From contig PKTI01000055.1 in NCBI GenBank assembly GCA_002869235.1, forward strand, positions 1 through 34,779: a stretch of DNA of 34,779 nt, given 5' to 3'. Within the stretch, counting starts at the first letter, position 1. The number at the start of each line of letters is the position of its first letter. The notes under the pieces are model-generated. The model was not told where the DNA came from, made no database searches, and saw only the letters and a list, made by a program, of their open reading frames with translations. A program made the position numbers and the translations under genes. This DNA comes from Candidatus Parcubacteria bacterium. GTDB lineage: Bacteria > Patescibacteriota > Patescibacteriia > UBA1558 > GWA2-36-10. Positions 25,536 through 26,275 of this stretch are shown piece by piece.

Positions 25536-25594
25536 CCTTGACTAATTGCCTTATTATTGTTATACTTTGCTTTGTTTAAAATATAATGCCCCCA

Positions 25595-25650
25595 CCCGCC
25601 TAGACTCAATGTCCTCGCCTCGATTCGGCGAAGCAGGTAGTCGAGGTTGG
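25595..25650. repeat. GC-rich palindromic insert 1 in the tRNA remnant
   Basis: Contains CCTCG and CGAGG at its inner ends (25613-25617 and 25641-25645) and the hairpin TCGCC-TCGATTC-GGCGA near 25615-25631. Its boundaries coincide with the junction between tRNA bases 7 and 8. Far more GC-rich than its surroundings. Confidence 0.6.
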
Positions 25651-25664
25651 TAGTTCAACGGATA

Positions 25665-25684
25665 CCTGCCTGCCGGTAGGCAGG
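25665..25684. repeat. 20-nt palindromic insert 2 in the tRNA remnant
   Basis: CCTGCCT and AGGCAGG are perfect arms around GCCGGT. The insert lies exactly between GGATA and GAAC, that is at the end of the D loop of the intact tRNA, whose sequence is continuous there. Confidence 0.8.
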
Positions 25685-25734
25685 GAACAGCGCTTTTCCT
25701 CGTGGGTTTATTTATAAAATTTTTATTCTATTCT

Positions 25735-25809
25735 GCCCCCATAGTTCAACGGATAGAACAGCGGCCTTCTAAGCCGTCGATGTAGGTTCGATTCCTGCTG
25801 GGGGTACCA
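25735..25809 (+). tRNA. tRNA-Arg (anticodon TCT)
   Basis: Cloverleaf read by eye: acceptor GCCCCCA with TGGGGGT, D stem GTTC/GAAC, anticodon stem GCGGC/GCCGT with loop CTTCTAA (anticodon TCT), T arm GTAGG-TTCGATT-CCTGC, discriminator A and encoded CCA. Its CCA is also the first three bases of the hairpin that follows. Confidence 0.95.
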
Positions 25810-25849
25810 CGTAAAGCGAGCATAGCTCGCCACGTGGCACGGCCACGTG
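25807..25849. repeat. CACGTG hairpin pair between tRNA-Arg and the GIY-YIG gene
   Basis: Outer arms CCACGT (25807-25812) and ACGTGG (25832-25837) enclose GCGAGC-ATA-GCTCGC (25816-25830). The right part can instead pair as CACGTGGC (25831-25838) with GCCACGTG (25842-25849), loop ACG. The two folds exclude each other. The first arm overlaps the tRNA 3' CCA. Confidence 0.8.
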
Positions 25850-25866
25850 TTGTTAAGAAAAGCGAT

Positions 25867-26142
25867 ATGTATTATGTGTACGTTTTACAAAGTTTAAAAG
25901 ATGGATCTCTTTATACGGGTTTTACTAGATCGGTTAGTAAAAGGTTTTCTGAGCATAATAGTGGTTTGGATAAACACACTATTAAACTCCGTCCTTGGAA
26001 AATTATATATTATGAAGCCTACCTATTAAAGAAAGATGCTATTAGCAGAGAAAAATTTTTAAAAAGCGGATCTGGTAAGCGATATCTAGATAAGCAACTT
26101 AAAGAATATTTTAAAAGTCATCCACGTAAAAAGTTCACGTGA
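25867..26142 (+). CDS. GIY-YIG endonuclease (UPF0213/YhbQ type)
   Basis: A 91-aa single-domain nuclease if it starts at the ATG at 25867; an in-frame GTG at 25834 lies inside the hairpin and is less likely. The GIY-YIG core reads MYYVYVLQSLKDGSLYTGFT, with Tyr residues at both motif halves and Ile/Gly replaced as often in this family. The arginine is in VSKRFSEHN and the catalytic Glu in SREKFLKS. Small GIY-YIG proteins of this kind may repair DNA or act as homing-like enzymes. Its TGA lies in a CACGTG motif. Hairpins and tRNA genes lie on both sides. It is more AT-rich than the flanking repeats. Confidence 0.88.
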   Translation: MYYVYVLQSLKDGSLYTGFTRSVSKRFSEHNSGLDKHTIKLRPWKIIYYEAYLLKKDAISREKFLKSGSGKRYLDKQLKEYFKSHPRKKFT

Positions 26143-26201
26143 CGTTCTATTTTTAAAAATGGCGCGCCACGTGAACTATGCGTAGCATAGTTTTTACGTG
26201 G
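26133..26201. repeat. CACGTG hairpins between the GIY-YIG gene and tRNA-His
   Basis: GTTCACGTG (26133-26141) is repeated inverted as CACGTGAAC (26168-26176). A second hairpin has outer arms CCACGT (26167-26172) and ACGTGG (26196-26201) around AACTATGC-GTA-GCATAGTT (26174-26192). The architecture equals the hairpin at 25807 (same outer arms, different inner stem). The palindrome GGCGCGCC lies at 26161-26168. The last arm overlaps the 5' end of tRNA-His. Confidence 0.8.
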
Positions 26202-26275
26202 TGCCTATGGTGTAATGGTTAACACAGCGGTTTGTGGTACCGCTAATGAGGGTTCAATTCCCTCTAGGCACCCCA
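26200..26275 (+). tRNA. tRNA-His (anticodon GTG)
   Basis: Acceptor GTGCCTA/TAGGCAC with the extra G-1 (26200) opposite C73, the His identity feature. D stem GTGT/ACAC, anticodon stem GCGGT/ACCGC with loop TTGTGGT (anticodon GTG), T arm GAGGG-TTCAATT-CCCTC, encoded CCA. Confidence 0.95.

Follow-up and report, generated by a model that had tools for sequence, protein, structure and literature searches.

The small GIY-YIG nuclease gene that lies between the tRNA-Arg and tRNA-His genes of a 34,779-nt contig from a Candidatus Parcubacteria bacterium (the window, by which we mean this whole stretch) appears to form, together with its cognate hairpins, a minimal selfish, homing-like element of REP type that inserts behind tRNA and tmRNA ends, a reading to which we assign a probability of about 60%. 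A minimal mobile or homing-like unit tied to tRNA ends had been proposed in a sequence-only reading of this DNA, and it gains support from a junction that is occupied in two sister species and empty in other relatives, from hairpin modules that begin exactly at the CCA, and from their partnership with one nuclease clade. Since that clade travels in several phyla with its own hairpin repeats, typically placed exactly at a tRNA or tmRNA end, our results point to a kind of minimal selfish element not described in the open-access papers searched. No dedicated enzyme is known for many of the REP palindromes of bacteria, and small GIY-YIG genes without an explanation abound in CPR genomes; with clade and module paired, a 91-residue protein and a few short oligonucleotides are enough to test both questions, and the pairing would add a selfish element that lands at RNA genes of the highest conservation, tmRNA among them, without breaking them.

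A one-gene unit between two tRNA genes

tRNA-Arg(TCT) (25735-25809; ARAGORN and Rfam) and tRNA-His(GTG) (26201-26275; ARAGORN), both intact and on the plus strand, are separated by 391 nt enclosing one complete GIY-YIG gene, also on the plus strand (25867-26142, ATG at 25867, TGA at 26142, 91 aa), and the element measures ~392 nt. The gene had been described earlier as framed by hairpins with the same outer arms and different inner stems, the first overlapping the CCA of tRNA-Arg and the last the 5' end of tRNA-His, and the tRNA coordinates confirm this arrangement. The 5' hairpin (CCACGTAAA-GCGAGCATAGCTCGC-CACGTGG, plus strand, 25807-25837; z -4.6 against dinucleotide shuffles) starts at the first C of the CCA, the triplet with which the element opens, and its CGTAAA side faces the tRNA. 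The 3' hairpin (CCACGTGAACTATGC-GTA-GCATAGTTTTTACGTGG, 26167-26201; z -6.4 against dinucleotide shuffles) ends on G1 of tRNA-His; the distal arm is closed by this base together with G-1 (26200). The CCACGT/ACGTGG arms are common to both hairpins, and the inner stems are unrelated.

Both ends can fold further. At the proximal end, an alternative hairpin (CACGTGGC-ACG-GCCACGTG, plus strand, 25831-25849), found in the MFE and centroid folds, uses the right arm of the 5' hairpin. At the distal end, the arm CCACGTAAAAA at 26122-26132, contributed by the last codons of the GIY-YIG gene (PRKKFT-stop), pairs with TTTTTACGTGG in an outer stem around two hairpins, including the inverted module at 26167-26201, and so produces a three-way junction (26122-26201, plus strand; z -5.95, with 0 of 200 shuffles equally stable). 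CACGTG is found four times in the 34.8-kb window, every time within the element; the count is unremarkable against the 2.0 expected, and it is the clustering that is notable. Above gathering scores, Rfam detected tRNA families and no other RNA at the locus. There is no intron in the flanking RNA genes, as a group I intron with a GIY-YIG ORF would require, and no tyrosine or serine integrase within the ~392 nt, as would be expected of a tRNA-targeting integrative element.

The order tRNA-Arg(TCT) then tRNA-His(GTG) is conserved within the taxonomic order, and both occupied and empty alleles of this junction were found, as for a homing endonuclease element. The same element occupies the junction in G000 and its sister species G001; in at least nine relatives (G004, G008, G013, G015, G017, G019, G023, G027 and G029) the junction is a spacer of 2-115 nt without the gene, for instance 34 nt in G019, 9 nt in G008 and 2 nt in G027; and in G018 it holds a different GIY-YIG gene and an extra tRNA-Lys. 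Neither a gene-bearing junction fixed in distant relatives nor other copies devoid of hairpins, the two outcomes that would have spoken against mobility, was seen for the cognate subfamily. Comparison of G000 with G001 shows a wholly different inner stem in the distal hairpin, its pairing kept, and the outer arm in G001 carries a compensatory change (GTTCACGTG/CACGTGAAC to GCTCACGTG/CACGTGAGC). A gene-less module behind tRNA-Lys(TTT) is likewise present in G000 and missing in G001, a member of the same genus, with flanks that align.

The encoded protein belongs to the GIY-YIG superfamily. It matches PF01541 (E=1e-15), contains the YVY, YTG, R26, H30, E62 and KSGSG motifs, and has all of the residues that are invariant (V4, Y5, Y16, G18, H30, E62) or near-invariant (R26) in alignment A1. 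The protein consists of the GIY-YIG domain alone and lacks a DNA-binding domain of its own; its AlphaFold model (pLDDT 95) is closest among solved folds to UPF0213/BH0048 and Slx1, with I-TevI further off (E-values slightly above 1e-3, probability 1.0). Comparison with the G001 copy gives dN 0.20 and dS 1.53, the latter near saturation, and a dN/dS of ~0.13; the protein is therefore under constraint, which a role in the host could also explain. The G001 copy may be inactive, because its Arg26 is replaced by His. A viral origin was considered and rejected: relatives are limited to three weak ones in IMG/VR and two Staphylococcus phage records (39% identity), and with matches so few and weak this is not a typical phage gene.

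A polar hairpin module and its enzyme clade

The 5' hairpin is one copy of a polar module (CCACGTAAAA-stem-TCACGTGG) that is also present behind other tRNAs and tmRNA. A search of the window's own genome for the exact pattern CCACGT-N-ACGTGG found it six times per strand, and the reversed pattern never. Two of the six are the window's hairpins, one (C37) lies in apparently ordinary coding sequence, and the other three are AAAA-tagged copies without a GIY-YIG gene, behind tRNA-Lys(TTT), tRNA-Lys(CTT) and tRNA-Gln (~90 nt between). A stricter pattern gave 13 matches in eight of 110 relatives and 0 with the reversed control, and nine proximal modules begin exactly at the CCA of a tRNA (Leu, Leu, Glu, Glu, Arg, Ile, Lys, Lys) or of tmRNA. 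A scan of GTDB genomes returned at least 120 matches; among the 120 listed, 29 begin exactly at a tRNA or tmRNA CCA (more than a dozen isotypes, plus tmRNA), none is placed there the other way round, an arrangement that the symmetric arms would permit, and for 23 a small GIY-YIG gene lies no more than 1.2 kb away. Most module copies have no gene, many being apart from any, and some (L015, and in Verrucomicrobia) are apart from any tRNA. At L010, L023 and L008 modules form inverted pairs with the AAAA side outward, which resemble REP/BIME or MITE elements.

These distributions modify the idea that the hairpins are the unit's own ends. They do frame the gene here; but the module is mostly gene-less, with three further copies in this genome, and is thus better described as a REP/MITE-like family with few gene-bearing copies than simply as the ends of a unit. 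Terminal repeats of a single composite unit were rejected because modules occur alone. The expectation that CCACGT hairpins flank small GIY-YIG genes is borne out in the cognate subfamily and fails for the other five such genes of this genome, which lack this hairpin type.

The cognate subfamily was delimited with a profile (A1) of 18 module-adjacent proteins from CPR, Verrucomicrobia and Omnitrophota (motif GREKFLKSGSGRRFLKKQL), used to search 380 genomes of the phylum by protein only, with 70 loci read. A strict module lies within 400 nt at 12 of the 15 best-scoring loci (>=109 bits) against 2 of the 55 others (<107 bits), and at 10 of 13 top loci after dropping two identical to profile rows; the held-out genes are only 57-76% identical to the profile rows, but the profile was itself built from hairpin-associated proteins and independence is incomplete. 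The three exceptions carry variant modules in the same place (CCACGTAAAGG.., CCACGAAAAG..CTCGTGG and CCACGTATAGCGC..GCGCACGTGG), behind tRNA-Arg, tRNA-Gln and tRNA-Glu. In a tree of 189 protein-sampled genes the 13 top genes, 10 with strict and 3 with variant modules, form one supported clade (96/81). A second tree, sampled partly by hairpin, includes the window and Verrucomicrobia genes; in it the module label changes 10 times against 31.5 when shuffled, and the window falls within a weakly supported group of 27 rows, 26 of which have the module. The association reaches Verrucomicrobia and Omnitrophota, and one GIY-YIG subfamily is thus the cognate partner of the CGTAAAA/TCACG module.

Near the top genes, 17 of 30 CGTAAA..CACG pairs have complementary 3-nt arms, against 0.47 expected, and fall into eight arm types; the outer arm is therefore not fixed as CCACGT, as had been supposed, and co-varies. 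The main rival is a role of the hairpins in tRNA 3' processing or termination, in which they would be host cis-elements acting at the RNA level (terminators or processing signals of tRNA and tmRNA precursors that pair with the CCA) and the nuclease gene a passenger in a tRNA operon. Modules that begin exactly at mature 3' ends would suit such elements, as would the T-runs that end the distal hairpins of L010 and L017, the existence of two alternative pairings, and the other palindromes of these genomes that also start at CCA. We nevertheless think it unlikely: few tRNAs per genome carry a module and sister species differ in its presence, the CGTAAAA/TCACG letters are conserved further than pairing demands, and a single GIY-YIG clade accompanies the modules across phyla, including Verrucomicrobia copies with no adjacent tRNA. 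When six genomes of the latter phylum were searched for a high-copy family with CGCGTAAAA..TCACGCG, five contained 3-14 copies, numbers that in G111 and G112 came near those of the reversed control.

It is also conceivable that a different enzyme, such as a transposase of the IS200/RAYT type, moves the modules as REPs and that the GIY-YIG protein is domesticated. The REP-like inverted pairs and the dN/dS of ~0.13 agree with this; it is, however, the GIY-YIG nuclease whose gene lies inside the hairpin array and which follows the module through the tree, and we regard this explanation as very improbable.

Other palindromes and tRNA ends deserve mention. At L378, L388, L381 and L389, further palindrome families begin at the tRNA CCA (CCATTCGAC..TCATGG; CCATCCTTCG..GGATGGC), and downstream at L378 the 3' end of tRNA-Lys occurs a second time. 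In L316, L319 and L321 the module arm is CCGCG and the tRNA 3' end is CCG, not CCA, as if supplied by the element.

tRNA fragments and a possible mode of movement

Small GIY-YIG genes, of which nearly every relative searched has one or more, are frequent neighbours of tRNAs: in 53 relatives, 63 of 117 such genes have a tRNA within 400 nt, and in 223 neighbourhoods, a set that includes hairpin-sampled loci, a same-strand tRNA lies upstream in 79 and downstream in 66, against 4 on the opposite strand. The adjacent intact tRNAs are often accompanied by a duplicated fragment, commonly broken by palindromes, either a 5' half that stops at nt ~35 and lies upstream of the gene (Glu, Tyr, Lys), a 3' end that starts at nt 57 and lies downstream (Lys, Pro), or the two together (Met, L102), and in other subfamilies a duplication of nt 57-77 is found at L124 and L105. 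Such fragments match what insertion into a tRNA gene followed by restoration of that gene, as in homing, would leave. The window has a fragment of the same kind upstream of tRNA-Arg, where a relic of its 5' half (25588-25698, plus strand) forms a direct repeat with the intact gene, its pieces (GCCCCCA at 25588-25594, TAGTTCAACGGATA at 25651-25664, GAACAGCG at 25685-25692) being separated by inserts, one of which is the palindrome CCTGCCTGCCGGTAGGCAGG at 25665-25684. Comparable palindrome-broken tRNA-Arg 5' halves lie upstream of the same gene in G001, G010, G015 and G022.

These fragments could also be due to a freestanding homing endonuclease of the classical kind, comparable to the phage enzymes Seg and F-Tev, that cuts the T or anticodon arm of tRNA genes, the palindromes being unrelated REPs that arrived later in tolerated DNA. 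Displaced tRNA 5' halves (nt 1-~35) and 3' ends (57-77) beside other tRNA-adjacent GIY-YIG subfamilies, and palindromes located within the relics, agree with it. For the window we give it a low probability, as the hairpins of this subfamily are specific and polar and group with the protein in a single clade, and the gene is not followed by a displaced 3' end of tRNA-Arg.

Displaced, palindrome-broken halves, whose breaks fall close to nt 35 in the anticodon and to nt 57 in the T loop, were recorded at L006, L005, L079, L075, L095, L020, L102, L124 and L105; at L006, L095, L020 and L052 the GIY-YIG frame extends into the downstream tRNA gene, with its stop inside or just before the tRNA. A separate group of 29 of the 117 genes, with an 'NPNWxDL' C-terminus, is flanked by GTCAT-tagged palindromes (L001, L002, L028, L057, L065, L112 and others, in the window's genome and in relatives). 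GTCAT density is 5.85 per kb near these genes and 1.69 far from them, and inverted pairs occur at 15 of the 29 against 7 of the 88 other GIY-YIG genes. The leader AAAAGCGAT stands right before the start codon in the window (25857-25866) and at several loci of different subfamilies (8 of 29 flanks of 'NPNWxDL' genes and 11 of 88 of the others).

Under the selfish, homing-like reading that we prefer, the element would consist of a small GIY-YIG gene and polar modules (NNNCGTAAAA-stem-TCACGNNN'), placed in inverse orientation at either end so that their CGTAAAA sides face away from the gene, and would sit on the same strand directly behind the CCA of a tRNA or tmRNA. Its nuclease could recognise hairpins or junctions extruded from its own element, the tRNA end, or both, and nick or break the DNA there, after which repair would copy the segment delimited by the hairpins to the end of a further tRNA or tmRNA gene. 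We infer a structure-selective nuclease because the fold is nearest to UPF0213 and Slx1, and because ANKLE1, another GIY-YIG enzyme, cleaves cruciforms and Y-junctions (PMC10287932). With a hairpin that takes in the CCA and a same-strand placement, the tRNA would still mature and the gene would be read from the tRNA promoter, and gene-less copies would persist as REP/MITE-like passengers. Counting against a selfish element are the many modules apart from the GIY-YIG gene and the some that are apart from any tRNA as well, the replaced Arg26 of the G001 copy, the constraint on the protein, and the lack of a clean target-site duplication of the tRNA 3' end at the window, L010, L023 and L017; at L250, in Verrucomicrobia, repeated tRNA-Gln 3' ends (TTCGAATCCTAGCGAGGCAGCCA) alternate with modules around the GIY-YIG gene.

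Comparison with known systems

In the open-access papers that formed our scope we found no report of GIY-YIG enzymes with REPs or at bacterial tRNA ends, and within that scope our claim of novelty is provisional. UPF0213 (BH0048) and the nuclease domain of Slx1 share the fold and the catalytic residues of the window protein. Slx1 acts on branched DNA as an enzyme of the host, and neither is known to have a mobile or hairpin association.

The GIY-YIG homing endonucleases, whether freestanding or intron-encoded (I-TevI, Seg), are similar in having a GIY-YIG domain, a one-gene unit, occupied and empty sites, and conserved non-coding-RNA genes as targets. The window element differs in its size (91 aa), in lacking a separate DNA-binding domain and an intron, in being bounded by hairpins and in its many tRNA targets, and its protein is nearer in fold to UPF0213 and Slx1 than to I-TevI. 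Selfish nuclease genes at RNA genes of CPR bacteria have a precedent in the LAGLIDADG-enzyme insertions that lie inside CPR rRNA genes, over half of them group-I-intron-like (PMC11270868); unlike these, the window element lies outside the tRNA, has no intron and encodes a GIY-YIG enzyme.

A close parallel in way of working is RAYT (TnpA-REP) with its REPs, BIMEs and REPINs, where small, polar, tagged palindromes occur as inverted pairs, a dedicated enzyme gene lies among them and many copies are gene-less; the modules described here likewise cluster with one enzyme clade, form inverted pairs and occur without a gene. The enzyme, however, is a Y1 HUH transposase in RAYTs and a GIY-YIG nuclease here, the sole gene between the window's hairpins, with no Y1 (HUH) transposase among them; the tag is GTAG in RAYT-REPs and CGTAAAA/TCACG here, with no GTAG beside the palindrome; and copies of the window module are few and mostly at tRNA or tmRNA 3' ends. 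CGTC-tagged REPs are palindromic repeats with no known dedicated transposase (PMC3733652), from which the window module differs in its tag and in having a candidate enzyme. The element thus works like REP/RAYT systems and homing genes, and by enzyme class and tag falls outside the RAYT definition. We tentatively suggest, at somewhat less than even odds, a new category of bacterial mobile elements in which GIY-YIG nucleases each have their own REP-type hairpins, as RAYTs do: the window's clade with CGTAAAA/TCACG at tRNA and tmRNA ends, and the 'NPNWxDL' clade, which might even be the missing enzyme of the CGTC-tagged REPs, with GTCAT-tagged palindromes.
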